A stretch of 64,000 nt of DNA from Levilactobacillus zymae. GTDB taxonomy: Bacteria > Bacillota > Bacilli > Lactobacillales > Lactobacillaceae. Both the position numbers and the translations under genes were made by a program. Of this stretch, positions 3,751 through 64,000 are shown piece by piece. The notes below the pieces were generated by a model. The model made no database searches. It worked only from the letters and a program-made list of their open reading frames with translations, and was not told where the DNA came from. How positions within the stretch are numbered: position 1 is the first letter of the stretch; the number at the start of each line of letters is the position of its first letter. The DNA lies in assembly GCF_032190635.1 (NCBI RefSeq), contig NZ_JAVLAS010000001.1, positions 248,001 through 312,000 of the forward strand, given 5' to 3'.

Positions 3751-3792
3751 GGTGGATAACTTTTTAGAAAAATCATGCGCTAGTTATCCCCA
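3751..3792. promoter_or_regulatory. DnaA-box-like sites between yidC and jag
   Basis: GGTGGATAA at 3751-3759 and TTATCCCCA at 3784-3792 each differ by one base from a DnaA box in opposite orientations. They sit in the 208-bp gap between yidC and jag, which otherwise holds only the yidC terminator and the jag RBS. Confidence 0.35.
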
Positions 3793-3798
3793 AGGCCT

Positions 3799-3836
3799 AA
3801 AAAAGCCGCTCCAGCTTTAACGGCTGAGCGGCTTTA
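3799..3836 (-). terminator. Rho-independent terminator after yidC
   Basis: On the minus strand GCCGCT pairs with AGCGGC across a 15-nt loop region and is followed by TTTTTT. It begins about 20 bp after the yidC stop codon. Confidence 0.8.
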
Positions 3837-3857
3837 AAATGCATTTAATGTTGCGTC

Positions 3858-47813: not shown

Positions 47814-48293
47814 ATGAACATCAAGTTTGTGGTGGTAGGTAAGTTGAAGGAGAAGTATTTTAAGCAGGGCATTGCGGAGTACGCCAAGCGGCTTTCCCGC
47901 TTCTGTAAGTTCTCGATTGTGGAGGTTCCCGATGAGAAGGCCCCGGAGAGTCTCTCCCAGGCACAAATGGACCAGGTGATGCAGGCGGAAGGCGACCGGA
48001 TCTTAGGGAAGATTAAGGACCGCGAATACGTCTTTGCATTGGCCATTCTGGGCAAGGAACGCTCCTCGGAGGAGTTCGCCAAGGAAATTAAGGACCTGAC
48101 CACCTATGGGCACTCGGATTTAACTTTCGTGATCGGTGGCTCGTTAGGTCTGGCGCCGGAAGTTCTGAAGCGCGCGAACACGCAGATCTCCTTTGGTCGG
48201 TTCACGTTACCCCACCAGTTGATGCGGTTGGTGTTGACGGAGCAGGTGTACCGGGCGTTTATGATTAATGAGGGGTCTCCATATCACAAGTGA
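47814..48293 (+). CDS. rlmH: 23S rRNA (pseudouridine1915-N3)-methyltransferase RlmH
   Basis: 159 codons from ATG at 47814 ([16 protein letters not shown]); TTGGAGGAC precedes it, and the upstream in-frame start overlaps this RBS. RlmH methylates pseudouridine 1915 in helix 69 of 23S rRNA. SPOUT fold signatures: [17 protein letters not shown] (SAM-binding knot) and the C-terminal [13 protein letters not shown]. The final codons TAT CAC AAG TGA are the same site that SCC elements and some integrative elements use as attB. The 3' end is intact because insertion restores it, and repeats of the site follow downstream. Confidence 0.98.
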
Positions 48294-48298
48294 TGCGG
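48276..48298 (+). repeat. att-like repeat 1 (rlmH 3' end)
   Basis: Core TATCACAAGTGATGCGG spans the last three codons, the stop codon of rlmH and 5 bases beyond. It is nearly the same as the staphylococcal attB core TATCATAAGTGATGCGG. A T run follows, so the site may also act in termination. Confidence 0.85.
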
Positions 48299-48336
48299 TT
48301 TTTTCAGTCAGGAACCGCTGTGTAGGGTGTTACGGG

Positions 48337-48358
48337 AGTCCGTATCACAAGTGATGCG
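48337..48358 (+). repeat. att-like repeat 2
   Basis: CCGTATCACAAGTGATGCG, 61 bp after repeat 1. It is preceded by GAACCGCTGTGTAGGGTG-TTACGGG, a segment that also precedes repeats 3 and 4 and therefore looks like the inner end of a cassette. The 60 bp between repeats 1 and 2 would be a relic cassette. Confidence 0.8.
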
Positions 48359-48468
48359 TTTGATTTTTTAAAATTATGAAAATAAACAAAAACACTTTTG
48401 TGGAAATAAATGATAGGTGTATATCTTACTAAAAATAATAGACGTTTACAGTGATGGGAGAAATACTA

Positions 48469-49236
48469 ATGAGTTCTAAGATTGTGATGCAAGATTTCAT
48501 CAAGGACTTGGCGGATCATATAAATCAATTGAGTATTGATAGTGCGCAAGGCAGCCTGGAAGTAGCAAAAAAATATCCGGTGTCACCTAATGACTATTTA
48601 CGATACGCAAAAGTAGAATTGAATGCGATTAAAGGTAAAGAATTAAGTGATGATAATGTTCGTCATGGGATAAATTGTGTTAATCATTTAAAACGCGCGG
48701 CGGATGAAATGATGAATGTTTTTTTAAACCGACTAGGTCTTCTAAAGTTAAGCAACAAGAGAAATTTAAAGTTTAAGAACAAAACTCAATTTTTTGTCGA
48801 TATAGGTGTGCTACAAAATTATTCTGCGGATAAGCTTAATACTATTAGGAATGGGATTGAACATGACTTTTCTGCACCTGATATAGAAACTATTCATTTG
48901 TATTACGACATTGTGTGGTTTGTCGTCCAAAATTTAAAATTACATTTACAGATAATGGCTAGATATGAATCTATGGAAGGTTATATCTATGGGGACATAA
49001 ATATAGCTCATAGTAAACACTTTGATTTGGAATATAACAGTGCAGAACGAGAATTTCTATTCAAAACGGAGTTAGATAATAAAGAAAAAAATGGGGAAGT
49101 AATTTTTAATTTTAATGACAAAGAGAATATGTACGCAAAAATGTTTTTAGTTTATTGGAAATTAATTGAATTTTTTGGAGATTTTGATTTGGAATCGGCT
49201 AAAGAAGATATTGTAAGAATTAGTACTATATTGTGA
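48469..49236 (+). CDS. HEPN-like protein with RxxxxH motif (putative defence protein)
   Basis: 255 codons from ATG at 48469, 8 bases after GGGAG. The protein is mainly helical and cytoplasmic. A HEPN-type bundle is suggested by LKRAADEMMNVFLNRLGLL (about 69-87), QFFVDIGVLQNYSADKLNTI and then RNGIEHDF at residues 127-134, where R127-x4-H132 fits the HEPN RNase motif. It is strongly AT-rich, unlike the core genes, and lies between att-like repeats 2 and 3 as the first gene of the cassette. HEPN proteins are common RNase effectors in phage-defence and toxin systems. The family assignment is inference. Confidence 0.6.
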   Translation: MSSKIVMQDFIKDLADHINQLSIDSAQGSLEVAKKYPVSPNDYLRYAKVELNAIKGKELSDDNVRHGINCVNHLKRAADEMMNVFLNRLGLLKLSNKRNLKFKNKTQFFVDIGVLQNYSADKLNTIRNGIEHDFSAPDIETIHLYYDIVWFVVQNLKLHLQIMARYESMEGYIYGDINIAHSKHFDLEYNSAEREFLFKTELDNKEKNGEVIFNFNDKENMYAKMFLVYWKLIEFFGDFDLESAKEDIVRISTIL

Positions 49237-49318
49237 TGTTAGGTGTTTTACATATAGTATATAAGTAAATAATGAGATTCGCTTTGTAACTTAAAATGTA
49301 GAGAATATGGAGGCGCAT

Positions 49319-49711
49319 ATGGACGTAGAAGATTTTGGGAGAAGAATAAGTATGATCGATACCCAGACTTCTAAGGCGAATGCATACGATTTGAGATGGG
49401 GACAGCACCATGATAGGTGGTGGACTGGACAGCGAGAACATTTGGGCGTGTGGTGCATGTTTCAGCCCACCGGGGGTGTTCTGGGATATCCACACAGACC
49501 CAATCATTCTGCCAGAACAATGTATATAAATTTCGGTAGGCCTGAGACCTTGGTTTGGTTAGCTGAGGCAGCGGGAGTTGATGATGATCTTTTAGACAGA
49601 GTGATAGCCAGTATTTCTAATGATTTTCCCGCTAGAACAAGATGCGGCATATTGAGACAAATAATATCGTTTGAGATGATTGCAGGTAAATTATCTCAAG
49701 TATTGGTATAA
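49319..49711 (+). CDS. Hypothetical protein, 130 aa
   Basis: 130 codons from ATG at 49319 after GGAGG with 5 bases spacing. The family is not recognised. It is rich in tryptophan and histidine in its first half (LRWGQHHDRWWTGQREHLGVW, split at residues 25-45), then has PHRPNHSARTMYINFGRPETL and a helical C-terminal part. It is codirectional with the HEPN-like gene but 82 bp away. Placed on the same cassette, it could be a partner or a separate cargo gene. Confidence 0.6.
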   Translation: MDVEDFGRRISMIDTQTSKANAYDLRWGQHHDRWWTGQREHLGVWCMFQPTGGVLGYPHRPNHSARTMYINFGRPETLVWLAEAAGVDDDLLDRVIASISNDFPARTRCGILRQIISFEMIAGKLSQVLV

Positions 49712-50011
49712 GTAAAATTATTCTTCATAGTTTGTAAACTTGATTCTGAAAAGCATATTCTATATGTACTTATTATGTGAGTAAAAAATTATAAAAGTAG
49801 AAATTTAAAGCGAACGGACAGTGGCGTTTGTCTTGTGATTCGGGATTGCGGGAGAACTGCGGGGTGACAGGGTGCTTGGTGTGACAGGGATGACAGCTAG
49901 TTGACCCGTTTTCCCGTTAGTATTTATTATAGGTTTTGCTTTATGTATTTATGTCTTACTCGCTTTTTTAGCGGGTTTTCGGGGTATTGTTGATTTGATT
50001 ATGTTTATGAA

Positions 50012-50053
50012 CAAAAATCGGCGGGGCCTTTGGGGGGCTCCGCCGATTTTTTC
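50012..50053. terminator. Strong bidirectional terminator
   Basis: AAAAATCGGCGGGGCC and GGCTCCGCCGATTTTTT form a long stem with A and T tracts. Confidence 0.85.
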
Positions 50054-50309
50054 TTGCTGTGTTATTGATACTTGGATTGGCCGTTATGCGGCCTAGGGGC
50101 CTGTCTACTAAGCACGCTGTTCCAGCTGTGCTGCTCCTTGCAAGCATGAACTAGGGGCGTTCATGCTCTTAGGTCGCTTGTTACTGAGGTTGGTAGTCTG
50201 TTTGTATCTCTTTTTGAAAGAGGTATTTTTGATGATTGTTATTAGGTGAATGGGTATTTGCTGGTAGGGAGCGTCGGTCGGCCACAAGTCGCTGCGTTCC
50301 CGTGACAAC

Positions 50310-50325
50310 TGTTTCACGTGAAACG
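50310..50325. promoter_or_regulatory. parS-like site in module 1
   Basis: TGTTTCACGTGAAACG differs from the parS consensus only at the last base. It lies between att-like repeats 2 and 3, so it may have arrived with a cassette or predate it. Confidence 0.75.
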
Positions 50326-50452
50326 TTTCGTAGCATGTTATTATTGAGTTGATCAGGATGGGTGTCTCGGAGAACGGCAGTGTATTTTATTTCTGATGTA
50401 TGATTAGAATCAGTTGTGTACAATTAGGAACCGCTGTGTCGTGTGTTACGGG

Positions 50453-50475
50453 TCTCCGTATCATAAGTGATGCGG
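50453..50475 (+). repeat. att-like repeat 3
   Basis: TCTCCGTATCATAAGTGATG followed by CGG and five T. TATCATAAGTGATGCGG is identical to the staphylococcal core. Preceded by GGAACCGCTGTGT and TGTTACGGG as in the other copies. Confidence 0.85.
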
Positions 50476-50639
50476 TTTTTGCGACCTCTCGGAATAATCG
50501 TACTGTTCGAAGCACCTTTTAGGCGCTTAGGCGAATTACTATGGAAATCAATGATTGTGCTTGGACGAGCGGCCAGATCAAAACGGCGGATCCCATTGGG
50601 GGTCCGTCGCTTTGACTTCTTCATCGATTTTTAGCTGGT

Positions 50640-51305
50640 TTACATGTTCGGGTCAAACCCGTTTCCAGTCATCACAGCGACCCGAGGCCGGTCTCCATTC
50701 GTACCGGGCTTGCTAACGCCGACGGAATCGCGAACGTCTAAAGTCGGATTCTGAATCAGGCTGACCGCGTAAGCCGCAATGCTTTGCCGGGAGACCTCGG
50801 TTCCCACGAAGGCATCGTGGCGGTGTGTCGTGGTATAACTGACCTCGTCATCGTTCGTCAGCCAGGCGGGACGAACGATGGTGTAATCCAGGTCACTGGC
50901 TTCGATGACGTCTGCCGCGGCCCGGTAGGTCTTTAAATAGTCGGGCAATGCCCGGTTATTTAGCTCGCCAAATTTGCCGGGGACCTCATCGTAGATGCCC
51001 AGTGAGGAGGTCCAGATCAGCCGTTTAACGTTTTGCTGGTCCATCACCGTCACTAAGGTTTTCGCCGCCGTGACGACATCGCCCCCTAGACTGGCGTACA
51101 CAACGTCCTGTCCCTGAATCGCTGACGTCAATTGCGCCGGATCGGTGGCATCACCGACCAGAATCTTAGCGGCTTGCAAATCGGCGGGGAGCTTTGCCCG
51201 ATTGCGCAAGAACAGGGTTAACTGAATAGTCTTGTCGCGTAACAAGGTTCGTTCCGCCCATTGAGCAATGCGACTGGTAGCACCAATAATTAAAATATTT
51301 TTCAT
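50640..51305 (-). CDS. NAD(P)H-binding atypical short-chain dehydrogenase (NmrA-like)
   Basis: 221 codons. N-terminal Rossmann fold NILIIGATSRIAQWAERTLL (GATSxIA variant of GxxGxxG), LVGDATDPAQLTSAIQGQDVV and the active-site-like region WTSSLGIYDE with TIVRPAWLT. Likely a redox sensor or quinone/flavin reductase. It lies 15 bp after the nitroreductase on the same strand, forming an operon. GC content resembles the core, unlike module 1. Confidence 0.87.
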   Translation of the reverse strand: MKNILIIGATSRIAQWAERTLLRDKTIQLTLFLRNRAKLPADLQAAKILVGDATDPAQLTSAIQGQDVVYASLGGDVVTAAKTLVTVMDQQNVKRLIWTSSLGIYDEVPGKFGELNNRALPDYLKTYRAAADVIEASDLDYTIVRPAWLTNDDEVSYTTTHRHDAFVGTEVSRQSIAAYAVSLIQNPTLDVRDSVGVSKPGTNGDRPRVAVMTGNGFDPNM

Positions 51306-51320
51306 GGTTAGACGACCTTT

Positions 51321-51971
51321 CTAGTCAGTTATGGTAAGGTAACGGTCAAGGGGCATTCGTTCGGAGCGAAACTGGTTGATTCTAGCTTGCTCATCGCGAT
51401 AGCCCAGCCCAATCCCCATCCCAAATTGGTAGTCGGCTGGGACGTTTAAAATCGTGTGTAATTGTTGCGGGTCAGCGACGAATTCCGCGGCCGGCATTGA
51501 GTCGACCCCCAGCGCCGTCGCGGCCAACATGAGCGTCTGACCGAAGGCGCCAAGGTCGTAGGCGGTCCACAGAGAGGCCTTAGCGGGCATCAAGAGGTAG
51601 GCAATGGCGGGCGCTGAAAAGAGCTGTGCCGAAGCGGTGGTCATCTGCCCGTATTGGGCCCCGAGAAACGACTGCAGGTCAGTTGACCAAGTCCGCACGT
51701 TGGACCGGCCTTGCGCGGCCATAGCGTCGCGATGAAGGGGTGGAAATTCGGAATTTCCGGAGCGCCCTGATTGCAGGGCTGCTAGGTGGGCCCGTTTGAT
51801 TTGCGTGAGGTGTTCACCGGTTGCCACCACGACCCGCCAAATTTGATCGTTGGCCCACGATGGGGTGGTCCCGGCAGCTTGTACGATTTTGGTAATCGTG
51901 TCGGTAGGTAACGGCCGTTGGCTGAACGCTCTGACTGAATGCCGATTTGCTAAAACAGTTTGAAAGTCCAT
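51321..51971 (-). CDS. Nitroreductase-family oxidoreductase, module 2
   Basis: 216 codons. FMN motif NRHSVRAFSQRPLPTD at residues 9-24, TTPSWANDQIWRVVVA, SLWTAYDLGAFGQTLMLAA and the C-terminal GLGYRDEQARINQFRSERMPLD. It is paralogous to the nitroreductase at 22466-23110, with the same domain order and length. Divergently transcribed from an HxlR regulator, whose operator-like repeats lie between the two, so regulation by that protein is likely. Follows the usual redox-stress layout. Confidence 0.9.
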   Translation of the reverse strand: MDFQTVLANRHSVRAFSQRPLPTDTITKIVQAAGTTPSWANDQIWRVVVATGEHLTQIKRAHLAALQSGRSGNSEFPPLHRDAMAAQGRSNVRTWSTDLQSFLGAQYGQMTTASAQLFSAPAIAYLLMPAKASLWTAYDLGAFGQTLMLAATALGVDSMPAAEFVADPQQLHTILNVPADYQFGMGIGLGYRDEQARINQFRSERMPLDRYLTITD

Positions 51972-52029
51972 CGTTTCATAACCTTCTTTATGACGAATTT
52001 TAGGAACGAGGCTATCATAACCGTATTAG

Positions 52030-52079
52030 TTACTTTTAGTAAGAGACCACTTTTTTGTTAGCTAGCCACTTAAAAGTAA
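52030..52079. promoter_or_regulatory. HxlR operator candidate
   Basis: TTACTTTTA (52030-52038) and TAAAAGTAA (52071-52079) are perfect inverted copies in the gap between the divergent nitroreductase and hxlR genes. Confidence 0.6.
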
Positions 52080-52118
52080 GAATTGGACAACCATAGGACT
52101 TTGAGGAGATAAAAAATC

Positions 52119-52523
52119 ATGAAGAAAGATGAGCCGATGTCGATTTGCCCGTGTGCTATTACCATTGCGATGCTGAGCAGTAAGTGGAAGATTTTGATTC
52201 TGCGTGAATTACTTAAGGGAACGTGTCGCTATCGCGATTTGCGCGAACGGGTCTTTGGTGTTAGTCAAAAAATGTTGACGCAAAGTCTAAAAGAGCTAGA
52301 AGCGGATGGGCTAGTTAGTCGGCGAATTTATCCGGAAGTGCCGCCACGGGTTGAGTATAGTCTGACGGACGATGGGAACAGTCTGCGACCCGTGATTCAG
52401 GTTCTGGATGACTGGGGCGCCCATTACGTTGCCGAAAAGGATCCTGATTATGTCGCCACCCGGTTCAATCTGGACGCACCGAAAAACAATTGGATGAAGA
52501 TTCCGTATAATGAGTCGCTTTAG
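52119..52523 (+). CDS. HxlR-family transcriptional regulator
   Basis: 134 codons. Winged helix of the HxlR type: MSICPCAITIAMLSSKWKIL (the Cys near the N-terminus is used for redox or aldehyde sensing in HypR/YodB relatives), LRELLKGTCRYRDLRERV, VSQKMLTQSLKELEADGLVSR and a wing VPPRVEYSLTDDG. The ATG follows GAGGAG. It is divergent from the nitroreductase operon and probably represses it until electrophile or disulfide stress. Confidence 0.93.
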   Translation: MKKDEPMSICPCAITIAMLSSKWKILILRELLKGTCRYRDLRERVFGVSQKMLTQSLKELEADGLVSRRIYPEVPPRVEYSLTDDGNSLRPVIQVLDDWGAHYVAEKDPDYVATRFNLDAPKNNWMKIPYNESL

Positions 52524-52565
52524 TTGCTGGTTAACAGGCATAGATGAGGCTAACTGATCTGTTAC

Positions 52566-52608
52566 TAAAAAAACGACGAGTTCCCCAGTAGAGGTGCTCG
52601 TCGTTTTA
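52566..52608. terminator. Bidirectional terminator
   Basis: AAAAAACGACGAG and CTCGTCGTTTT pair between convergent hxlR and the hydrolase. Confidence 0.88.
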
Positions 52609-52615
52609 AGTTGGA

Positions 52616-53623
52616 TTAGAGATTTTCTTTAAAGAAACTAGAGAATTTGTCGAATGGAATTTTGTCCAGCTGGTCGTACAGGTCCACGTGATCCGCGCCG
52701 GGAACGATGATCAGTTCCTTGTGATCCTTCAACCGGTGGTAGGATTCCTCCGCCATATAGCGGGAGTGGGCGTTTTCACCGGTGACAATCAGGACTGGCC
52801 GTGGGGAGATTTCATCGATGTGGGCCTGCAAATGGAAGTTGTAATAGCTCCACGGAGTCGTGGCGGTCCAACTACTCGTCGAATTGATGGACCGGGGATG
52901 GAACGCCCGTTGCTTGTAGTACTTAAAGAACGCCGTGGTGATGGGGTCGGCGTTGTCGGGGAGTTGATCGGGTAAGATGGTTGGGAATAGCAGTGGGTGG
53001 TTCTGGTCGTCAAACATCAATTCGTGGGGGCCCCGACCAGTAGTACCATTTTCGGCATCTTGCCAGCGCTGGTTGGCGAGATAGTCCTTCTCCAAGTTGC
53101 GCTGTTCGTCGGTCTTGGTGTTGCCAACACCCTTCCACATCGAATCCGACATGTCGTACATGACCGAGGTGGCCACGGCCTTGATTCGCGTGTCGATGGA
53201 CGCTGCGGTCAGGACGTGAGAGCCAAGACCACAGATGCCAATCGCCCCAATTTTTTCGCGACCAACAAAGGCCTGAATCCCAATAAAGTCAACGGCTGCG
53301 GAGAAGTCTTCCACGAAGATGTCCGGGGAGGCCACGTTACGAACCGTGCCAGAGCTTTCACCGGTGGTCGATTGATCGAAGGCCAAGGCGACAAACCCAC
53401 GTTCGGCCAGCGTCTGGGCGTAAAGTCCACTGGATTGTTCCTTTACGGCTCCGAACGGTCCGGAAATCACGATGGCCGGGTAGGTCTGCTGGTCATTAAA
53501 GTCAAGGGGGAGGTAGAGGTGGCCGGCCAGGGTAAAGCCGTACCGGTTGTTAAAGCGGACGTTATGAACGTCGATGGCGGGGTTGATCTTGAAGACGCGC
53601 GTATCGTTGGCTAATTTTGACAT
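52616..53623 (-). CDS. Alpha/beta-hydrolase (DLH/X-Pro dipeptidyl-peptidase-like fold)
   Basis: 335 codons from ATG at 53623; GAAAGGA lies 9 bases upstream. Alpha/beta fold: oxyanion region YPAIVISGPFGAVKEQSSGL (about 41-60), AFDQSTTGESSG, nucleophile-elbow-like GICGLGSHVLTAA (Cys in place of the usual Ser, as in dienelactone-hydrolase-type proteins), aspartate region ISPRPVLIVTGENAHS and late histidine GADHVDLYDQL. Likely an esterase or dienelactone-type hydrolase. It lies directly after a truncated MerR-like gene on the same strand. Confidence 0.85.
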   Translation of the reverse strand: MSKLANDTRVFKINPAIDVHNVRFNNRYGFTLAGHLYLPLDFNDQQTYPAIVISGPFGAVKEQSSGLYAQTLAERGFVALAFDQSTTGESSGTVRNVASPDIFVEDFSAAVDFIGIQAFVGREKIGAIGICGLGSHVLTAASIDTRIKAVATSVMYDMSDSMWKGVGNTKTDEQRNLEKDYLANQRWQDAENGTTGRGPHELMFDDQNHPLLFPTILPDQLPDNADPITTAFFKYYKQRAFHPRSINSTSSWTATTPWSYYNFHLQAHIDEISPRPVLIVTGENAHSRYMAEESYHRLKDHKELIIVPGADHVDLYDQLDKIPFDKFSSFFKENL

Positions 53624-53624
53624 A

Positions 53625-53870
53625 TTAGTGGGTCCTTTCATCAATCAATTGGTAACGGAGGTAGTCCAGACGGTCTAACTGGTCCTGAGCAACGTGGAGC
53701 TGGGCGAGGGTCGCTGAGCGTTCTTCGTTCAACCGTTGGGCTTGCTGTGCCCGGGGGAGCTGTAGAAATTGGGTAATCCAAGTTTTTGAAAATCCGATTT
53801 CTTGTAATGTGGTTTGCGTTTCACTAGGTGTTAGCGTATCGAACGACCTCCCTTCTATGCTAGTTATCAT
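53625..53870 (-). pseudogene. MerR-like C-terminal fragment
   Basis: 81 codons open. The segment LQEIGFSKTWITQFLQL followed by a coiled-coil-like QRLNEERSATLAQLHVAQDQ ending LDYLRYQLIDE matches the part of a MerR regulator after the DNA-binding helix-turn-helix (GFS-x-x-x-I motif, then dimer helix). The HTH itself is missing and no start codon follows the GGGAGG at about 53845, so it is probably a broken regulator. It ends 2 bp from the hydrolase start. Confidence 0.5.
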
Positions 53871-53953
53871 ACGAGGAAACGCCTATAATGTTAAATACTA
53901 ATTGTGAATGGCGAGTCATAACTTGAACACATGACTAGAAAGGGCGGATGATG

Positions 53954-54835
53954 ATGGATTTACAACAGCTGCAAAACTTCTTGGTGGTGGCCCAGGAAGA
54001 AAACATTACCCACGCGGCGGACTATCTCCATCTCTCACAACCGGCGCTTTCTCGCCAAATTAAGGCACTGGAACGGGAATTTGGAAAACCGTTACTCGTT
54101 CGTGAGGCCAAAAAGGTCCGGTTGACCAGAGATGGGGTGCTGCTCCGGAAGCGGGCGGCGGAAATTACTAAATTGGTAACGAAGACCAGTGATGAGCTCC
54201 GAACCAATCAGCATGAGTTAGACGGCGATATTCTCCTAGGCGTTAGTGAGACGGATGCGGTTCGGTTCATTGGTCAGGTCGCGGCGGACTTGATTCAACG
54301 CCACCCCAAGATTACGCTGAAACTGCACAATGGAAACAACGAATCAATCTTGAACATGGTTAATAGTGGTCTGGTAGACCTGGGGTTATACTTTGGTCGA
54401 GTCGATCAGAATGTCTTTAACAGCCTGCCGTTGCCCCAGTTGAATCGTTTTGGAGCGTTGTTGCCCAGTGACCATCCGTTGGCCGCTAAAGCGGTGCTCA
54501 CTCCGGCTGATTTAGTCCAGGAATCCCTGATTCTTTATCAGGAAGCGTTAACTGACGGCTCGCTAGCCAAATGGTTTCAGCGGGATTTAACTGATTTGCG
54601 AATTGCGGGAACGTTTGACATGTACCTCAGCGCGCAGAAGCTGGTGGAGAGTGGATTAGGGATTGCGTTGGTCTTTGACGACTTGGTGGGGTATCATGAT
54701 GCAGAATTGACCTGTCGGCCCATTACACCAGAAATCGCGGTTCCCGTGAATCTGATTTGGAAGAAGTACCAGATCTTTTCGGACACGACTCAGGCGCTAT
54801 TAACGGCGGTGAAGGCAGCAATAGGAAGAGATTGA
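53954..54835 (+). CDS. LysR-family transcriptional regulator
   Basis: 293 codons from ATG at 53954 (53948 and 53951 are alternatives); AAAGGG lies about 9 bases upstream. N-terminal HTH MDLQQLQNFLVVAQEENITH with LSQPALSRQIKALEREFG, then a type 2 periplasmic-binding-like sensor domain (about 90-293; GDILLGVSETDAVRFIG, SGLVDLGLYFGR). Divergent from the hydrolase and therefore its likely regulator. It is the last gene of module 2; the stop codon lies about 10 bp before the repeat that leads to att-like repeat 4. Confidence 0.93.
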   Translation: MDLQQLQNFLVVAQEENITHAADYLHLSQPALSRQIKALEREFGKPLLVREAKKVRLTRDGVLLRKRAAEITKLVTKTSDELRTNQHELDGDILLGVSETDAVRFIGQVAADLIQRHPKITLKLHNGNNESILNMVNSGLVDLGLYFGRVDQNVFNSLPLPQLNRFGALLPSDHPLAAKAVLTPADLVQESLILYQEALTDGSLAKWFQRDLTDLRIAGTFDMYLSAQKLVESGLGIALVFDDLVGYHDAELTCRPITPEIAVPVNLIWKKYQIFSDTTQALLTAVKAAIGRD

Positions 54836-54871
54836 TGGAGCAGGATGAACCGCTGTGTAGGGTGATACGAG

Positions 54872-54894
54872 TCTCCGTATCACAAGTGATGCAG
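54872..54894 (+). repeat. att-like repeat 4
   Basis: TCTCCGTATCACAAGTGATG then CAG. It is preceded by GAACCGCTGTGTAGGGTGAT (54847-54866), the same inner-end sequence as repeats 2 and 3. It separates module 2 from module 3. Confidence 0.83.
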
Positions 54895-55040
54895 TAAGTA
54901 ATGTTAAGGAGGAAAACTAATTATGGGTGCAACGGAAATGGCAGCACTATCAGGGCTTATTATGGCCGTAAAAAGTGCTGCTCCGGCAGTTGTAGAATCG
55001 TTAAATAATGCTTATGATTTTGCGGTGGGTGATTGGATAC

Positions 55041-56382
55041 GGGAGCGTAAAATATCTTGTGTAAACGCTGATTCATTTATGTAATAGAAAAGGGAACGTC
55101 TTCCCTGTATGATTAAAGGTACCTACACCACAATCACAAAGGAGACGTTCCCATATGAATGAGCTTAGCACAGAAATCATGTCAGCACTAGCGAAAAAGG
55201 AAGATGTTGGTGAAATTATTCGTCAGGCCGTTGAGCAAGCCGTTAATGGCTTGCTTAAAACTGAACTCACAGCCTTCCTAGGCTACCAGGCATACCAACG
55301 TCCAGATCAAGCTACTAATTACCGTAACGGTGTTTATGAACGCCAATTGACGACAAAATACGGTGAGATTACCGTTCAGGTCCCACGGGACCGAGCAGGT
55401 CAATTTGAGCAACAAACGATTGATCGTTATCAGCGACGGACTGACAGCCTGGAAGATATGGTCATTCATCTGTATCGTCGGGGAATTACGACGAAAGAAA
55501 TTGCCGAACTGATGGAAAAGATGTACGGCAGCTATTACACCCCAGCCACCATGTCGAACATTACGCAGAATGTGGCCGAACAGGTCGAACGTTTCCATCA
55601 GCGAAAGTTAGCTGATAAGTACGCAGTCGTGTACGTCGATGCGACTTACGTGCATCTACGGCGGGATACGGTGGAGAACGAAGCGGTCTACATCATGATT
55701 GGCATTCGTCCCAATGGACGTAAGGAAGTTCTCAACTACACTATCGCACCAACCGAATCAAAGACTATCTGGGAGGAACAACTCCAAACAATCAAAGACC
55801 AAGGCGTCCAGCAAGTCCTTTTATTTGTGGCCGACGGTGTCATTGGCTTAACCGATGCAGTCACACAATACTTTCCCAAAGCAAAGCTCCAGCGTTGTCT
55901 CGTCCATGTAGCTCGTAACTTTACAGCCAAGGTTCGGGTCAGTGACCGTAAGCCGATCAATGATGCCTTTCGTGATGTTCGCCAATCAGCTACGGCAGTA
56001 GCTGCAAAACAAGCCTTAACGGTTTTTATCGATAAGTGGGGTAAAAAGTATCCTAGCCTTAAGAAGCTTGCGCAAGAGGAGAATTTATTTACCTATTACG
56101 CTTTCCCCAAGGCCGTTCGTCATAGTATTTACTCAACCAACCTAATCGAATCTTTTAACAAGGTCTTCAAATCCAATCTCAGGAAGAAGCAACAATTTCC
56201 AAACGAGGATTCTCTAGCAAGGTTTACCGTCACTCAGTGTTTAGATTATAACGACCGCAATACCAATCGGACGCATCGCGGTTTTGCCAGTTGCCGGGAC
56301 ACTTTCGACTCAATGTTTGAGTAAACTAACTTAGAAGACTAGTCATACAAAGACGAGTTTACACAAGATTCTTGACACACCC
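55041..56382 (+). mobile_element. IS256-family insertion sequence, copy 1 (complete)
   Basis: 1342 bp. Ends GGGAGCGTAAAATATCTTGT and (complement) GGGTGTGTCAAGAATCTTGT share TCTTGTGTAAAC. Flanked by an 8-bp target duplication TTGGATAC (55033-55040 and 56383-56390), the usual size for IS256. A second identical copy, inverted, starts at 63160. Confidence 0.95.
55155..56324 (+). CDS. IS256-family transposase, copy 1
   Basis: 389 codons, full length, ATG preceded by AAAGGAGACG. DDE catalytic residues: VVYVDATYVHLRR (D), LLFVADGVIGLTDAV (D) and STNLIESFNKVFK (E), with the N-terminal DNA-binding part ending YGEITVQVPRDR. Conserved C-terminal SLARFTVTQCLDYNDR. The frame is uninterrupted and, as both termini are intact, it could be active. 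Confidence 0.96.
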   Translation: MNELSTEIMSALAKKEDVGEIIRQAVEQAVNGLLKTELTAFLGYQAYQRPDQATNYRNGVYERQLTTKYGEITVQVPRDRAGQFEQQTIDRYQRRTDSLEDMVIHLYRRGITTKEIAELMEKMYGSYYTPATMSNITQNVAEQVERFHQRKLADKYAVVYVDATYVHLRRDTVENEAVYIMIGIRPNGRKEVLNYTIAPTESKTIWEEQLQTIKDQGVQQVLLFVADGVIGLTDAVTQYFPKAKLQRCLVHVARNFTAKVRVSDRKPINDAFRDVRQSATAVAAKQALTVFIDKWGKKYPSLKKLAQEENLFTYYAFPKAVRHSIYSTNLIESFNKVFKSNLRKKQQFPNEDSLARFTVTQCLDYNDRNTNRTHRGFASCRDTFDSMFE

Positions 56383-57477
56383 TTGGATACGTTCATGGAA
56401 TGATAAACGAAAGGTTAAACTACAATATAATCTTGATGAATATAAATTGGCATTATATAAGAATATAAACCAAATTCCTAATGATGAAATGAAAGAGCCA
56501 GATTTAAGTATCTTGGGTCCTGCATTAGATGCTACTAAGTATTATATTGAGGATAAAACGATGCGGGATTTATTTGCTCATGTTGCTGCCGGTGCGATGG
56601 ACTCTCGACTAGATGGCATAAATCGGTCAGCATTTGTCGAGTTTATTAAACAGATGACGCCTTTGGATGCAAGAATATTGAGACAGATGCAAACGGAAGT
56701 GTTGATTAAAAACGGAGATAAGACTTTACACATTGCAGCAGGAGGGCCAATACCGATAATTGATGTTAGTTCCAGAGATGATAGAAGTATGCAGATAATA
56801 AATGAAAACATTGTTCCTGATTCTCTGGTAGATACACTAAAGGTAAAAGGATTTTCTGAGGTGGCATCTTCAATTGATAATCTTAGTAGATTATCAATTA
56901 TTGAAAAGCATATTGGTGGATTAAGTAGTTGGAGAATGAAATCTATTACAGAGTGGTTTAAAAATAACAGTGCTGTCATGTTAGCACAGGAAAACTTAGA
57001 AAAAGAGCGTGAACAATATAGATCAGATATTCATAAGCGAGATAATAGAGAAATTGTCGAAAAAGACGGTGTAAAGACAATAAAGACCTATGCGTTCACG
57101 GAAGACCTAGATGCTGGATTACGACAAGCTGAACAACGAAGAATTGTTAAAGAGAATGCATTTATAAGGTAGATTGCAAATTTAATCCGAATTTTTGGAC
57201 AAATTGGTCAGCATAACCTGATACGGTGTTTGCCAGTCGAGTATTTTAAGCGGTCGCTGGTTAATTTGGAGTAACGTCGTCGTTAAATCTTGAGCACTAA
57301 TGTGCTCAAAACGAGTCCCCTTAGGATAAAAATAACGTAAATTCCGATTAAAGCGTTCATTACTACCACGTTCAGCTGGCGTATAAGCATGACAGTAATA
57401 GGTCTTAATACCATATTTGTCAATAGCGGCGTAGAAATGTTGGAAAATGGCGGTTTAAAAATGTAGGTTTTTGGCGG

Positions 57478-58215
57478 TTAGTTTGTTGCTTTTAGGCGGT
57501 ATGATTTTCCAGTTATCTTGATGATATGGGAATGATGAACTAAGCGGTCTAGAATGGCAGCGGTGACTGTTGGATTCTTGAAAATCTCGACCCATGTTGA
57601 AAGCTCGCTATTGCTAGTAATTATCGTTGAGTGTCGTTCATATCGCGCATTAATTAACTGAAAAAGAAGGTTGGCTTCGTCATGTTCTACTGGTAAATAG
57701 CCGATCTCGTCGATAATCAATAAGTCATATCGTGCATAACGGTTAATACAACGGTCTAGGGCGCCCTTCTCGTAAGCCGTATGCAGCCTTAGTAAGAGGT
57801 CATGACAGTTGATAAATAGGGTTCGTTTTCCTTGCTGACAGGCCGCCATGCCTATTCCAATGGCTAGATGCGTCTTACCGACGCCCGGACTACCGATAAA
57901 GACTAAGTTTTCTTGTTTCTCCAAGAACGCTAAGTCGCTAAAACTCTTTATTTTCTGCTGATTAATACTGGGCTGAAATGAGAAGTCAAAAGTTCTCAAA
58001 GATTTATTCTGGGGGAACCTTGCTCGTTCAACTATTCGTTGAACTTGACGTTGTTCTTGCCATTCAAGCTCCACGTCAGTGAGCTTAAGCATAGCCTCTG
58101 TAAATGAGAGTTCTTGCTCGTTGATTTGATCAAGAAAGTTTGGTAAGTACGCATGCATCTTGGCTAAACCCAAAGTATCTAAGTTGGTCATTAATTCCTG
58201 GAATTTACTATTCAT
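57478..58215 (-). CDS. istB: IS21-family helper ATPase IstB
   Basis: 245 codons. DnaC/DnaA-like AAA+ ATPase that assists IstA and gives target immunity. Walker A GSPGVGKTHLAIGIG (about residues 108-122), Walker B LLIIDEIGYLP and sensor STIITSNSELSTW. The start ATG follows GAGGAG and lies 12 bp after istA. Complete, no frameshift. Confidence 0.95.
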   Translation of the reverse strand: MNSKFQELMTNLDTLGLAKMHAYLPNFLDQINEQELSFTEAMLKLTDVELEWQEQRQVQRIVERARFPQNKSLRTFDFSFQPSINQQKIKSFSDLAFLEKQENLVFIGSPGVGKTHLAIGIGMAACQQGKRTLFINCHDLLLRLHTAYEKGALDRCINRYARYDLLIIDEIGYLPVEHDEANLLFQLINARYERHSTIITSNSELSTWVEIFKNPTVTAAILDRLVHHSHIIKITGKSYRLKATN

Positions 58216-58226
58216 TTATTTACTCC

Positions 58227-59444
58227 TCACACTTCGTCATATTGAGATAGATGTTCTGCGATAAATGCCTTAATTTCTTGATCATTCCGACCTTTAAGGA
58301 GGTCGGATTTTAGGATTTGAACGCGGTCATCCTCATGATAATTTAAGGCTTGAGTCGTAATGTCGTGCGAACGGATTGGTTCTCCGTTATAATAGATTTG
58401 AAGTTGGCGTGCATTATCAGATAGTTCAATGTTGACTGTCCGACCTATGTAACGCGGATCTACAGAGTACTTGCACTTACGGAAGTTAACCATCGATTCC
58501 TTCGATACGACACGGGTAATGTCTTCTTCGAAGAAGGAATCTAGCAGGTTAGCCGGTAGTTCGTGGAGGTACTCTTTTTCTTCGTACTCAAATTTATCTA
58601 AAGGAACTTGGTTCGTTGATTGTGACACTTCGTGATTTAAATCATCGCAGAGTTCATCGACGATATGAATCAAATCTACGCCATCATCGAACTCATAATT
58701 ATATGGCCGGAGACGTTCGATGGTTCGTGCCAAGGCTTCCACGACTCCTTTTGTTTGTGGCCTTAACGGCCGACAAGCAATTGGTTTATAACCGGCATCT
58801 TGACAGAATTGTTTAAATCGTTCGTTGAACACGGCCCTTCCAAAATTAGACTTTGAGTGATCAACGACTTGCTTCATGTTATCGAACCAGATTTCATGAG
58901 GAACGCCACCAGTTGCTTCGAAGGCATCATCTAAGCAACTGAACAGGGTATCCTGACTCCGATCGAAGACTAACGTAATGAATTTCAACTTTGAAAATGG
59001 TAAAACATACAGGAAGACATTGAAGTGATGTGGCTTCCCATCGCGTGAATATAGCGTCATTTCTTCCTTCCAATCCACTTGAGCTGATAGTCCAGGCGTG
59101 TGTTCAACACGTATTGTAGCTTTATGAACTTTTTCTTTTTTGAGACCGGCGCAGTAGTTACGGACAATCGTGTATTGGCCAGTAAATCCCTTCTTCTGAA
59201 TGAATTTGAAGATAGCCATCGCTGAACAGTTAAGCTCAATCTTATCTTCAATAATGTCTCGGTAAGCGTCAAGCTTACTGGGACGCTTAGTCGTTTTCTT
59301 CAACGCTATTGGGGCTTGGGCCTCTTGAAATGCTCGTTTGGCGGTGCGGTAATCAACCCCGTATTGTCGGGCTAGGGCAGCGTAGTTAGGCTTTAAATTA
59401 TTTTTCACGTAAGTCTGCACTCCTTCTCGAATATCGTATCTCAC
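58227..59444 (-). CDS. istA: IS21-family transposase IstA
   Basis: 405 codons. N-terminal HTH (ALARQYGVDYRTAKRAFQEA), RNase H-fold DDE core with SAQVDWKEEMT (D), EIWFDNMKQVVDH (D) and GVVEALARTIERL (E), then a beta-barrel C-terminal domain. ATG at 59444 follows CCAAGGAGG. It is complete and upstream of istB in the usual order. Confidence 0.96.
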   Translation of the reverse strand: MRYDIREGVQTYVKNNLKPNYAALARQYGVDYRTAKRAFQEAQAPIALKKTTKRPSKLDAYRDIIEDKIELNCSAMAIFKFIQKKGFTGQYTIVRNYCAGLKKEKVHKATIRVEHTPGLSAQVDWKEEMTLYSRDGKPHHFNVFLYVLPFSKLKFITLVFDRSQDTLFSCLDDAFEATGGVPHEIWFDNMKQVVDHSKSNFGRAVFNERFKQFCQDAGYKPIACRPLRPQTKGVVEALARTIERLRPYNYEFDDGVDLIHIVDELCDDLNHEVSQSTNQVPLDKFEYEEKEYLHELPANLLDSFFEEDITRVVSKESMVNFRKCKYSVDPRYIGRTVNIELSDNARQLQIYYNGEPIRSHDITTQALNYHEDDRVQILKSDLLKGRNDQEIKAFIAEHLSQYDEV

Positions 59445-60532
59445 ATCGATAACCTCCTTGGTTCCAATGTGATTTATGATATCAAAAAATGTAGGAAAAC
59501 CGACAATTTCTAATTGCCATTTTCCTACATTTTACGACCGCCATATACACATATTGTGATTCAAATGATACTAGCCCACTAAACTCAGTACCACGGTCCA
59601 CAGTAAAACTGTGCACCGGTCCATTAAAAGTTGTTAGGAACTTAGTCAGTGCTTCATTAACACTCGCTGTCGTTCGATCTTTTAACCGGTATGCCCAAAG
59701 GAACCGTGATTTTCGATCGATTAAAGTTAATAAAACTGCCTTACTATGCCCACGAGGACCAACGACTGTATCTAGTTCAAAATCGCCGATGCGATTACGT
59801 TGATTAATCATCATGGGACGCTGTTCAATTGATCGCCCCAAAGATTGATTATATTTGGATCGTTGGTCAACGTTACGCCGTTGGCGTACGCCATGTTCAG
59901 GTAGATCATTCAAGGAGAAATCAATTCTCCCCTGATTTAGCCAATTATAAATAGATTTAGTAGCTAGTTTAAATTCGTGAGCAATCATTCCTGGTGACCA
60001 GCTTAGACGTAAATGGTTGAGAATTTTTTGCTTTAACTCATCGCTCAGCTTAGTTTTCCGACCACATCGTGATCGCTTGTATTCGGCATCTGTTTGTGCT
60101 AATTCAGCCTGATAAGGTTGACATCGAGATAATTCATAAGAAATTGTTGACGGTGATCGGTTCAGCCGAACGCCCATTTGGATATTGGACAGCCCTAGTT
60201 CACAAAAGGTTTCGATTTTAATTCGTTCGGAATAGGTTATACTAGACAAAAGATCAGCTCCTAAAAGATGGGTTTGTGGTAAACACCATTTTAAAGGAAG
60301 CTGATCTTTTTTGTCCGAACAGCGTTCGGATTAATTTTACAATCTACCATAAAACTAACTTCTCTGGGGGAGAATTTTTGTAAAGTGTGTTTGCCCAGTG
60401 CTAATGATAAATAGTTAGTGTTGTTAGGACCTATAATAAATGTAAAAATATTAGCAGTGATAGTTAGAAAGCACTATGTATATTACGGTGTTCTGTACCA
60501 TATAATGGTGCAATTTTTAAAATCTACACGTA

Positions 60533-60567
60533 AGAGGCCATTCAGCGTTAGCGGGATGGCCCATTTT
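60533..60567 (+). terminator. Terminator ahead of the hsd genes
   Basis: AGAGGCCAT and ATGGCCCATTTTT pair as a stem with loop, then T tract. It would close transcription from the Abi_alpha side. Confidence 0.75.
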
Positions 60568-60656
60568 TGGTTGCATTGTGGTTGCTATAGGGCCGTTATA
60601 ATTTATCAATTGGGTATCGCATAGGATTCGATTTTTGTAATTCTATAGAATAACGA

Positions 60657-60685
60657 TTGACATTAATAAATCAACTTGATATACT
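60657..60685 (+). promoter_or_regulatory. Promoter of the hsd genes
   Basis: Consensus TTGACA (60657-60662), 17 bases, TATACT (60680-60685), 46 bp before the first hsd start. Confidence 0.88.
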
Positions 60686-60731
60686 TACACCATTAAGTGA
60701 AGTAATTCAAAAGACTAACAGGAGGAAACTT

Positions 60732-61283
60732 ATGAAATATGAAGAGCATAGACTGGGGGACCTTGTTAAATTTACTACAGGGAAGCTATTACCAAGAATT
60801 ACGGATACCATTGATGAAATACCGAGTCGTCGAATGATATACAATCCGTTAGCGGAGACAACTAAGTATATCCATGGAGATTCTGATTTACCAGTGATTA
60901 CGTCAGAGCAGGTTGGTATCTCCATGCTTCAACGGGAAGCTTACTTAGTTGAAGACTATCCTCAGGTAGATGAGCAAGTTTTAACTGCAAATTTTACTGC
61001 TGTTACATTTAATAGCCAATTAGACCGAGGCTATTTTGTATGGTGGTTTAACCATAGTATTGAGGCTCAACGCCAACTTAAAGCTTCTGGGCAGTTGGGC
61101 CGTCGAGTAGTAGCCAGTGATTTGCGTAAAGTCACTATTTCTGTACCTGATTTATTATTACAAAAAGATATTGGATGCCTTTATGCTATTGGTCAGAAAC
61201 AGGCACTTACTTTAAAAGAAAAAGCTGATTTAATGGAAGAGCACACCTTACAATTTATTAGTCAAAAAATGATGAAGGAATGA
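60732..61283 (+). CDS. Short type I restriction specificity (HsdS-like) protein, single half
   Basis: 183 codons from ATG at 60732 after CAGGAGGAAAC; upstream in-frame starts lack an RBS and overlap the promoter. HsdS-type signs: YEEHRLGDLVKFTTGKLLPR at the start, FTAVTFNSQLDRGYFVWWF, ASGQLGRRVVASDLRKVTIS and VPDLLLQKDIGCLYAIGQKQ followed by a helical region, the typical target-recognition domain plus conserved spacer helix. It is half the usual length with one recognition domain, so it would have to dimerise to specify a palindromic site, or is a modification-only partner. It lies 78 bp before hsdM. Confidence 0.75.
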   Translation: MKYEEHRLGDLVKFTTGKLLPRITDTIDEIPSRRMIYNPLAETTKYIHGDSDLPVITSEQVGISMLQREAYLVEDYPQVDEQVLTANFTAVTFNSQLDRGYFVWWFNHSIEAQRQLKASGQLGRRVVASDLRKVTISVPDLLLQKDIGCLYAIGQKQALTLKEKADLMEEHTLQFISQKMMKE

Positions 61284-61361
61284 TACGAAGATTTCGAAAA
61301 AATTTAACGTAATTTTGTAGTAGATGTGGTGCGTTAATAAATATAAGGAAGCAGGTGGGCT

Positions 61362-62888
61362 ATGATGGTATTAACAACTGAAAAAAAAGCATTAATCTGG
61401 AAGTCTTTAAATGACACTCGAGGAGGAATTGAACCATCAGAATATAAAAACTATATTTTTGGGATAATGTTTTATAAGTTTTTATCGGAAAAGGCACAAA
61501 CTTGGTTAGAAGGTGTGGACCATAAAAAAAGCCAAATTCAAAATTCCGACGAGTTGTTCAAGGCTATGCAAAAGAAATTGGGGTACATCATTCGGCCGGG
61601 AGAAATGTTTTCCGATTGGAAGAAAGCTATCGATGAGGGTAAATTTAATATAGCAATGGTTATTGATGCGTTAAGTCACTTTGATCAAGGTGTTAGTCAG
61701 GATGCTAAAGAGAATCTTGCTGGTATTTTTGATGGTATGGATTTGGTATCGTCGCGACTAGGCCCTAGTAACCAAACACGAACTGCGACGTTAGTATCTT
61801 GGATTAAATTGTTAGATAAAACTAAACTTGATACTCAAGACAATGTATCGGGGGATTTATACGAATATTTAATTGAAATGTTTGCGAACAATTCCGGCGC
61901 AAAATCAACAGATTTCTATACACCACATCAGGTATCGGATATTATGGCTCGAATCTTAACCGAAGGATGCGAGCGCCAGAGAGAGCATACATTGTACGAT
62001 CCGGCGATGGGGTCAGGTTCATTATTACTAACCACCTCATCTTATATGCATAATATAGTTGCCAAGGAAGGTATTAAATTCTATGGTCAGGAAATCATTA
62101 CGACAACTTATAACTTAGCACGAATGAATCTCATGATGCACGGTGTTGATTATAAGGATATTGATTTACGGAATGCTGACACACTGCAAAATGACTGGCC
62201 GAATGGTCCTATAAACGGAGTTGATACGCCACGATTGTTTGATACGGTTATGGTTAATCCGCCTTACTCCTTAAGATGGGATAATACTTCTAGAGAAGAT
62301 GATCCTCGCTTTAGATACGGTGTTGCGCCTAAGTCTAAAGCTGATTATGCCTTTTTGTTGCACGGCCTTTATCATCTGAAATCCAATGGGCGAATGGCAA
62401 TTGTCTTACCGCATGGGGTGTTGTTCCGTGGTGCGGCTGAAAAGAAGATTCGTAAACAATTATTGGAACATCACAATATTTCTGCAATCATTGGGTTGCC
62501 TGCCAATATCTTCAATAATACTGCGATTCCTACAGTAATTATGGTGCTAGAGAAAGATCGGGAAAGTGATGATATTCTCTTTGTAGATGCATCCAAGGGA
62601 TTTGAAAAGTATAAAAATAAAAATATCTTTCGCCAGGAAGATATTGATAAGATCATTGAGACATACCGTAAACGGGAAGACGTTAGTCGTTATTCACATG
62701 TTGCGACGATGGCTGAGGTCATTGAGAACGATTATAACTTGAACATTCCCAGATATGTGGATACTTTTATTCCACCTAAAATCATTCCTTTAATGGACCT
62801 TGAAGATCAATTAAACCAGCTAAATAAACAGTTATCTGTCTTAGAGGAAGATGGACAACGTATTATGACAAAGTATCAGGAGAACTAG
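61362..62888 (+). CDS. hsdM: Type I restriction-modification methyltransferase subunit HsdM
   Basis: 508 codons. N6-adenine methyltransferase. N-terminal HsdM_N helices (WKSLNDTRGGIEPSEYKNYI), SAM motif I DPAMGSGSLLLTTS (about residues 212-225) and catalytic motif IV NPPYS (about 299-303); FYTPHQVSDIMARIL precedes motif I. C-terminal part ends with a coiled-coil segment (LEDQLNQLNKQLSVLEEDG) as needed for HsdS contact. The ATG follows a weak GCAGGTGG. No hsdR is visible in the window; the M and short S are therefore either a modification-only pair or the first genes of a longer locus cut by IS256 downstream. Confidence 0.95.
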   Translation: MMVLTTEKKALIWKSLNDTRGGIEPSEYKNYIFGIMFYKFLSEKAQTWLEGVDHKKSQIQNSDELFKAMQKKLGYIIRPGEMFSDWKKAIDEGKFNIAMVIDALSHFDQGVSQDAKENLAGIFDGMDLVSSRLGPSNQTRTATLVSWIKLLDKTKLDTQDNVSGDLYEYLIEMFANNSGAKSTDFYTPHQVSDIMARILTEGCERQREHTLYDPAMGSGSLLLTTSSYMHNIVAKEGIKFYGQEIITTTYNLARMNLMMHGVDYKDIDLRNADTLQNDWPNGPINGVDTPRLFDTVMVNPPYSLRWDNTSREDDPRFRYGVAPKSKADYAFLLHGLYHLKSNGRMAIVLPHGVLFRGAAEKKIRKQLLEHHNISAIIGLPANIFNNTAIPTVIMVLEKDRESDDILFVDASKGFEKYKNKNIFRQEDIDKIIETYRKREDVSRYSHVATMAEVIENDYNLNIPRYVDTFIPPKIIPLMDLEDQLNQLNKQLSVLEEDGQRIMTKYQEN

Positions 62889-63159
62889 AATAGTTATCAA
62901 CGGGTTACTGCTCGAGATTACAAATGGAATTACATTATGCTACTTCAAAGAAAATAGAATTTTAATACAAACAGAAATAAGATTTGAATCAAAAATAAAA
63001 ACCATATATTTAAGTGAGCCTTTTTCTGGTATAAATTATGCAAATGATTAACACCAATCACTTAAACGAAAAATTTGCTTGTATAATAAAAGCTTAGAGC
63101 GGATGGTATGTACGTTAGTCGTCAATTAGTCAACGAAAGTAGGAAAAAAGTAAATGGCC
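62889..63159 (+). pseudogene. Promoter and first codons of a gene interrupted by IS256 copy 2
   Basis: A 271-bp AT-rich gap with a TTGTATAAT-type -10 (about 63078-63086). Further on, AGGAAAAAAG is followed by ATG at 63154 and GCC, and then the IS256 end begins at 63160. This is the start of a gene cut at codon 3; its identity is unknown, but hsdR or hsdS fits the position. Confidence 0.5.
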
Positions 63160-64000
63160 GGGTGTGTCAAGAATCTTGTGTAAACTCGTCTTTGTATGAC
63201 TAGTCTTCTAAGTTAGTTTACTCAAACATTGAGTCGAAAGTGTCCCGGCAACTGGCAAAACCGCGATGCGTCCGATTGGTATTGCGGTCGTTATAATCTA
63301 AACACTGAGTGACGGTAAACCTTGCTAGAGAATCCTCGTTTGGAAATTGTTGCTTCTTCCTGAGATTGGATTTGAAGACCTTGTTAAAAGATTCGATTAG
63401 GTTGGTTGAGTAAATACTATGACGAACGGCCTTGGGGAAAGCGTAATAGGTAAATAAATTCTCCTCTTGCGCAAGCTTCTTAAGGCTAGGATACTTTTTA
63501 CCCCACTTATCGATAAAAACCGTTAAGGCTTGTTTTGCAGCTACTGCCGTAGCTGATTGGCGAACATCACGAAAGGCATCATTGATCGGCTTACGGTCAC
63601 TGACCCGAACCTTGGCTGTAAAGTTACGAGCTACATGGACGAGACAACGCTGGAGCTTTGCTTTGGGAAAGTATTGTGTGACTGCATCGGTTAAGCCAAT
63701 GACACCGTCGGCCACAAATAAAAGGACTTGCTGGACGCCTTGGTCTTTGATTGTTTGGAGTTGTTCCTCCCAGATAGTCTTTGATTCGGTTGGTGCGATA
63801 GTGTAGTTGAGAACTTCCTTACGTCCATTGGGACGAATGCCAATCATGATGTAGACCGCTTCGTTCTCCACCGTATCCCGCCGTAGATGCACGTAAGTCG
63901 CATCGACGTACACGACTGCGTACTTATCAGCTAACTTTCGCTGATGGAAACGTTCGACCTGTTCGGCCACATTCTGCGTAATGTTCGACATGGTGGCTGG
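63160..64000 (-). mobile_element. IS256-family insertion sequence, copy 2 (cut by window end)
   Basis: Starts GGGTGTGTCAAGAATCTTGT and is the same as the complement of copy 1 through base 64000 so far as I compared. Its 8-bp duplication would be AAATGGCC (63152-63159); the other side is outside the window. Confidence 0.95.
63218..64000 (-). CDS. IS256-family transposase, copy 2, C-terminal part
   Basis: The last 261 codons of a transposase with the same sequence as copy 1; the first 128 or so codons lie outside the window. The three catalytic residues (DATYVHL, VADGVIG, NLIESFNK) are all within the visible part. Orientation is opposite to copy 1, so the two copies form an inverted pair about 6.8 kb apart. 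Confidence 0.95.
   Translation of the reverse strand, partial: PATMSNITQNVAEQVERFHQRKLADKYAVVYVDATYVHLRRDTVENEAVYIMIGIRPNGRKEVLNYTIAPTESKTIWEEQLQTIKDQGVQQVLLFVADGVIGLTDAVTQYFPKAKLQRCLVHVARNFTAKVRVSDRKPINDAFRDVRQSATAVAAKQALTVFIDKWGKKYPSLKKLAQEENLFTYYAFPKAVRHSIYSTNLIESFNKVFKSNLRKKQQFPNEDSLARFTVTQCLDYNDRNTNRTHRGFASCRDTFDSMFE

Follow-up and report, generated by a model that had tools for sequence, protein, structure and literature searches.

Probable recombinase-less cassettes of the SCC/ECC type in tandem at the 3' end of rlmH in Levilactobacillus zymae

A 64,000-nucleotide stretch of the Levilactobacillus zymae genome (assembly GCF_032190635.1, contig NZ_JAVLAS010000001.1, positions 248,001 to 312,000; referred to here as the window) carries, just downstream of rlmH, a row of units that each end in a copy of the last bases of that gene. 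The region is best explained, with a probability of about 0.88, as a composite of cassettes which have no recombinase of their own, are of the staphylococcal or enterococcal cassette chromosome (SCC/ECC) type, and are moved by Ccr recombinases acting in trans. The repeats themselves, the right ends that precede them, the elements in the same genus that combine ccr genes with such ends, and a content that varies from species to species carry this explanation. An earlier inspection of the letters alone (the sequence-only reading) had proposed that cassettes were captured at rlmH, and the presence of Ccr-type recombinases at this site within the genus supports that proposal.

In the mechanism envisaged, a pair of Ccr-type large serine recombinases would insert a circular cassette at attB, the core that ends rlmH. 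Integration would re-make the final rlmH codons, and the far side would keep a core together with the cassette's own right end (attR). Repeated integration, either at rlmH or at the core 61 bp further on, would produce a row of cassettes lying in one direction. The two units of interest, cassettes A and B, keep both ends and, since they contain no recombinase, would have to rely on ccrAB supplied from further elements at the same site, of the type found in L. huananensis and L. brevis CD0817. We infer that the CcrAB recombinases of the genus act on the ends in the window, and the order of cassette insertion is read in the same conditional way.

Attachment cores and right ends

The core, TATCAYAAGTGATGC, is present in four perfect copies in the window, each on the + strand, at 48282, 48343, 50459 and 54878. 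A search allowing up to two mismatches returned the same four copies and no others, where chance would give a mean of 0.16 and a maximum of 2 (100 shuffles), and no fifth copy was found in the whole source genome (2.89 Mb, 8 contigs) with up to one mismatch. The sequence-only reading had the number and the common orientation right, but its positions (48276, 48337, 50453 and 54872) were each off by 6. Its view that the first repeat is the end of rlmH itself is confirmed: rlmH occupies 47814 to 48293 on the + strand, and its final codons (TAT CAC AAG TGA, 48282-48293) make up attachment core 1 (TATCACAAGTGATGC, 48282 to 48296). Core 2 (48343 to 48357), core 3 (TATCATAAGTGATGC, 50459 to 50473) and core 4 (54878 to 54892) follow on the same strand, the last being the final + strand core ahead of the conserved flank. 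The arrangement is that of SCC/ECC-type elements, ie insertion at the 3' end of rlmH with direct repeats of that end. The rlmH gene of the source genome is 99% identical to those of L. zymae and L. spicheri.

A recognisable repeat here could also stem from a conserved rlmH element, terminator-like or of another kind, that has nothing to do with mobility, and the GCGGTT...AACCGC sequence past core 1 could, as read from the letters, form a hairpin. Such elements are hardly a credible source of the repeats, however, because all four copies in the genome lie at rlmH, rather than at many unrelated loci, and the content between the copies varies by species.

Copies 2, 3 and 4 are each preceded by a 34-nt right-end motif on the + strand, at 48309 to 48342, 50425 to 50458 and 54844 to 54877, respectively; an element-specific sequence of this kind at attR is what SCC/ECC-type elements have. 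A right-end matrix was trained on 16 ends from other genomes, with the source genome excluded. Its top three positions in the window were the ends before copies 2-4, with scores of 62.1, 61.4 and 57.6, and the next best position scored -1.0. When the core was left out of the matrix the same three ends still led (31.4, 30.1 and 27.6), followed by 11.7 on the + strand, the best - strand position scoring 12.8. The suggestion, made at the outset, that copies 2-4 share an inner-end sequence is borne out by this ranking. Scores up to 11 were not taken as ends. In 21 Levilactobacillus regions, on which the matrix had itself been partly trained, 30 matches above 11 lay on the + strand, against a single one on the - strand. 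Right ends above this value were present in 14 of the 21 regions and in 27 of 80 named loci, many of which are short contigs and some of which come from the same species. Blocks of AACCGC..GCGGTT and TACGG..CCGTA are visible at the ends, and those in the window resemble the inverted repeats of ECC attR as given in PMC6222049.

Recombinases in the source genome, the genus and beyond

Neither a PF07508 protein nor a CcrB relative at E<=1e-30 was found in the source genome. PF00239 was matched five times, on contigs C2, C3, C5 and C6, by open frames of 92-223 aa. The sequence-only reading had seen no ccr gene in the window and offered a position beyond it as one option; the first statement extends to the entire source genome, and the option falls, as none lies past 64000 or elsewhere. 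With no ccr genes on the element itself, the units are filed as recombinase-less cassettes and not as complete SCC or ECC. Cassettes A and B, with a core on both sides and no ccr, have the form of pseudo-SCC elements.

Within the genus, PF07508 proteins were found in two of 35 genomes, L. brevis CD0817 (CP032931.1; genome G031) and L. huananensis 151-2B (G012). Both have an element after rlmH with cch-ccrA-ccrB and the same kind of right end, 13.5 kb long in L. brevis and 10.9 kb in L. huananensis, so that a ccr pair and like ends are found together at the same site in close relatives. The gene order in the L. brevis element is Mor-like, DUF1643, a DUF927 helicase with a Cch helix-turn-helix domain, CcrA-like and CcrB-like. 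The best NCBIfam matches were SCCmet_CcrA for the CcrA-like protein (E 1.7e-50, 172 bits against a cut-off of 700), SCCmet_CcrB for the CcrB-like protein (E 1.2e-154, 516 bits against 900) and SCCmet_Cch1 for the helicase (E 2.8e-56, 191 bits against 700). Judged by these scores, the proteins are relatives and not equivalogs of those in staphylococci. The CcrB-like protein is 46-47% identical over 96-98% to staphylococcal proteins named cassette chromosome recombinase CcrB. The helicase matches PDB 5dgk (E 6.4e-46), which we take to be the SCC Cch helicase.

Cassettes that target rlmH might instead owe their movement to a different enzyme, for instance a tyrosine integrase. A 13-kb stretch bounded by rlmH in another genus (locus L062) has genes for a DUF3173 protein and for a tyrosine integrase (PF00589, E 4.1e-21), one Pol-SSB island in PMC10061031 has a Y recombinase, and there are four PF00589 matches in the source genome. 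The source integrases, however, are at 1.52-1.63 Mb and on contig C8, while rlmH is at 0.296 Mb, and the source chromosome has no gene for such an enzyme less than 1 Mb from the site. Relatives of the L062 integrase were limited, in the 21 Levilactobacillus regions, to a weak match in one (27%), and elsewhere downstream of rlmH to L062 itself, whereas right ends like those in the window close ccrAB elements in the genus. A mover of this kind is therefore improbable, though less so than the other alternatives, and the tyrosine integrase was rejected as a candidate, none of the four in the source genome being near rlmH. As a separate observation, the integrase and DUF3173 genes of L062 are at 3222-4615 in a stretch that ends in the present type of right end, and they may be a nested element or a second enzyme.

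In the family, 23 of 397 genomes matched CcrB at E 1e-30. Identity was 38-100% in seven of them, the query's own included, and at most 37% in the other 16. All seven relatives of at least 38% identity lie 4.7-12.3 kb downstream of rlmH, one of them (genome G186) having been placed through a named locus, L193. In a tree of 29 rows the CcrB-like rows of the Lactobacillaceae group with staphylococcal CcrB and with relatives from Vagococcus, Trichococcus and Carnobacterium; three other large serine recombinases fall outside this group. The CcrB group has moderate support (87/95), as do the Lactobacillaceae (85/95), and the program issued a long-branch warning. Across the order, 20 of 395 genomes matched CcrB at E 1e-80. 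Of 20 stretches around these matches, ten have rlmH upstream, and ccrB shares its strand in eight of the ten and is turned round in two; the remaining ten contain no rlmH within the stretch, and some of them are short.

Two observations were made at other rlmH loci. In Apilactobacillus ozensis (L203) a CcrB-like stretch (32%, residues 223-440) lies at +2027 from the rlmH end and a second core is at +4691; this is perhaps a single-recombinase element. Copies of the rlmH 3' end that extend beyond the 15-bp core are found at +5379 from the rlmH end in L066, at +14186 in L060 (the L. huananensis locus) and at +553 in L083.

Cassettes, the 61-bp unit and the segment beyond

Cassette A (48358 to 50473, + strand, 2116 bp) closes with core 3 and has a G+C content of 37.1%, compared with 53.0% upstream of rlmH. 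Its first gene is at 48469 to 49236 on the + strand, with the start read from the sequence, while the searches took 48475-49233. The second, at 49319 to 49711 on the same strand, encodes a 130-aa protein. Neither protein had a match in Pfam, NCBIfam or PADLOC. The first contains an RNxxEH motif, invariant in 14 sequences, which we presume to be HEPN-like, and the protein is thus a possible HEPN nuclease. Thirteen homologs were listed beyond its own cluster, the closest listed being 38% identical (Lactiplantibacillus carotarum). The end of the cassette (49814-50479) is 82.6% identical to L. acidifarinae, and the match reaches 6 bases beyond the core.

Cassette B (50474 to 54892, + strand, 4419 bp, 51.8% G+C) closes with core 4. 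It contains genes for an NAD(P)H-binding oxidoreductase (NAD_binding_10; 50640 to 51305, - strand), a nitroreductase family protein (51321 to 51971, - strand), an HxlR-type regulator (52119 to 52523, + strand), an S15-like alpha/beta hydrolase (52616 to 53626, - strand), an 81-aa protein with no Pfam match (53625 to 53870, - strand) and a LysR-type regulator (53948 to 54835, + strand). The hydrolase and the LysR-type regulator have 90% and 76.6% amino-acid identity, respectively, to proteins of a cassette in L. namurensis. By its sequence matches the cassette is a mosaic: the left part (50554-52513) is 88% identical to L. acidifarinae, at a place 22.9 kb beyond rlmH, and the right part (52611-54892) aligns over 2292 bp, with 75% identity, to the cassette that follows rlmH in L. 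namurensis. In both genomes the latter homology runs to the final base of the core and no further. Beyond its cassette, 3.6 kb past rlmH, L. namurensis has a C-terminal piece of ccrB (residues 297-484, 65%).

Between cores 1 and 2 there is a cargo-free unit of 61 bp (48297 to 48357, + strand) consisting of a GCGGTTTTTT-type left end, a right-end motif and core 2. The sequence-only reading had described tandem cassettes throughout; units A and B are cassettes, but this first unit is not. Two cores spaced 57-61 bp apart recur in 10 of the 21 Levilactobacillus regions, with the source region counted. The double core adjoins rlmH in the source region and in genomes G012, G022, G030, G031 and G032, and it is farther downstream in G001, G012, G015, G029 and G033. 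In G015 and G012 it stands immediately ahead of MerR and SDR genes, and its second core is decayed. The recurrence fits a double docking site belonging to the chromosome; alternatively, the 61-bp unit may be a cassette stripped of all cargo. A more speculative extension, to which we give rather less than even odds, is that Levilactobacillus has a built-in double docking site, at either core of which small recombinase-less cassettes are stacked, to be reshuffled in trans by rare passing ccrAB elements.

Ordinary duplication of the rlmH end, together with insertion sequence (IS) activity and without site-specific recombination, would account for some of these features, namely the 61-bp unit without cargo, the abundance of insertion sequences past repeat 4 and, at such sites in L066, L060 and L083, copies of the rlmH 3' end that go beyond the core. 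It does not sit well with the 34 bases before repeats 2-4, which differ from rlmH and match one another and the ends in other species, nor with the homology of cassette B to another species, which halts exactly at the repeat. Duplication is accordingly considered very unlikely, and movement by Ccr recombinases in trans is preferred.

The segment from 54893 to 64000 has no + strand right end, and no + strand matrix score exceeds 2 between core 4 and a helicase gene (G000:C1:345885-347162) 49.6 kb beyond rlmH in the source genome. This gene was chosen as the flank anchor because the MerR and SDR genes found after the last site in several relatives are missing from the source region. In 14 of the 80 named loci, every one of the 14 from another genus, it follows rlmH at 0.8-5.8 kb; the named loci span at most 10 kb downstream of rlmH, so larger distances are invisible there. 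In the 21 Levilactobacillus regions, source included, the distance is 7.5-60.6 kb. The original right border of the array in the window was not found. Within the window the open segment holds an IS256-type (Transposase_mut) element at 55155-56324, with a second copy from 63218, and type I restriction-modification (R-M) genes at 60657-62888. An Abi_alpha-type gene (54923-57172) is apparently split by the IS256-type insertion, its C-terminal part being at 56372-57172, and the start fragment ahead of the element probably belongs to this part. Other genes in the segment are, we presume from their proteins, IS21- and IS30-like. The recognisable defence genes (Abi_alpha and type I R-M), which the sequence-only reading had assigned to the cassettes, sit in this open segment, which has no right end up to the conserved flank.

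Cassette A and B DNA was sought in 35 genomes of the genus, with 8 candidates scored per genome. Some match was obtained in 16, source included, and was mostly short. A genome taken as L. spicheri (G024) has no more than 58 bp of right end in common with them, at 3.4 kb beyond rlmH, and one taken as L. zymae DSM 19395 (G034) gave no match to either cassette; after rlmH, the L. zymae contig runs on for just 981 bp. Content and spacing thus vary, and the same genes in the same order in every relative, which would have spoken against capture, were not encountered.

Several points weigh against a composite moved by Ccr in trans. The empty site anticipated by the sequence-only reading (rlmH, one repeat and flank) was not found in strict form in a near relative; the nearest approach, in Lentilactobacillus sp. 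Marseille-Q4993, has 0.8 kb and one decayed end between. The comparison used one genome per species and did not reach strain level. The cassettes would excise as circles, a step of which no product is seen from sequence. The CcrA, CcrB and Cch1 matches of the L. brevis element all fall under the NCBI equivalog cut-offs. A - strand position near 60471 of the source region scores 11.8, and scores slightly above 11 can therefore be noise. Dyad pairs around the sites number 10-12 of 24 at the best centre, where the random average is 10.6; the symmetry is therefore kept as a visible motif and not as a statistical result. Cassette A has GCGTTT and not GCGGTT at its left end, and parts of its tail recur at two more places in L. 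acidifarinae, so that the match to that species alone need not mean a common cassette.

Relation to known cassettes

The region resembles SCC, composite and pseudo-SCC elements in its insertion at the rlmH end, its TATCAYAAGTGATGC-type core, its tandem units in one direction and its recombinase-less units, and the full-length relatives share cch-ccrA-ccrB with SCC. It differs in its host, which is one of the Lactobacillaceae and not of the Staphylococcus group, in the low scores of the relatives' recombinases against the staphylococcal families, in having no ccr in the source genome, and in the recurrent double site; it is not SCC proper. With ECC, as described in PMC6222049, it has in common the rlmH site, a central TATCATAA motif and variable cargo and, through the full-length relatives, the ccrAB pair; 16 of 32 ECC elements there likewise have several attR sites. 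The host there is Enterococcus, and circles and transfer were demonstrated by experiment, compared with sequence alone here. Pol-SSB islands with large serine recombinases, as outlined in PMC10061031, mostly use the same site and have tandem composites and conflict genes as cargo. A difference is that the helicase of the L. brevis element is of the DUF927/Cch type.

The sequence-only reading had stressed a host outside the staphylococci. This is true here, but such hosts were already known, SCC-type islands at rlmH having been published for Enterococcus (PMC6222049) and further genera (PMC10061031). Table 1 of the Pol-SSB island paper (PMC10061031) includes no Lactobacillaceae, and they are not among the several genera listed in the quoted part of PMC10581047. 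In the open-licence literature, searched by titles and abstract openings, no paper on such elements in Lactobacillaceae was found among the matches listed.

In staphylococci, the resistance cassette of methicillin-resistant Staphylococcus aureus uses this kind of rlmH site. The cassette machinery at rlmH, best known as a carrier of methicillin resistance, is here extended to the Lactobacillaceae, where the genus Levilactobacillus has cch-ccrA-ccrB and, in many species, arrays of attachment sites. If the double docking site is real, it would be an integron-like use of SCC machinery in lactic acid bacteria. These food bacteria offer a setting in which the building of cassettes and their movement in trans can be studied, and a wider tree in which the origin of SCC can be placed.

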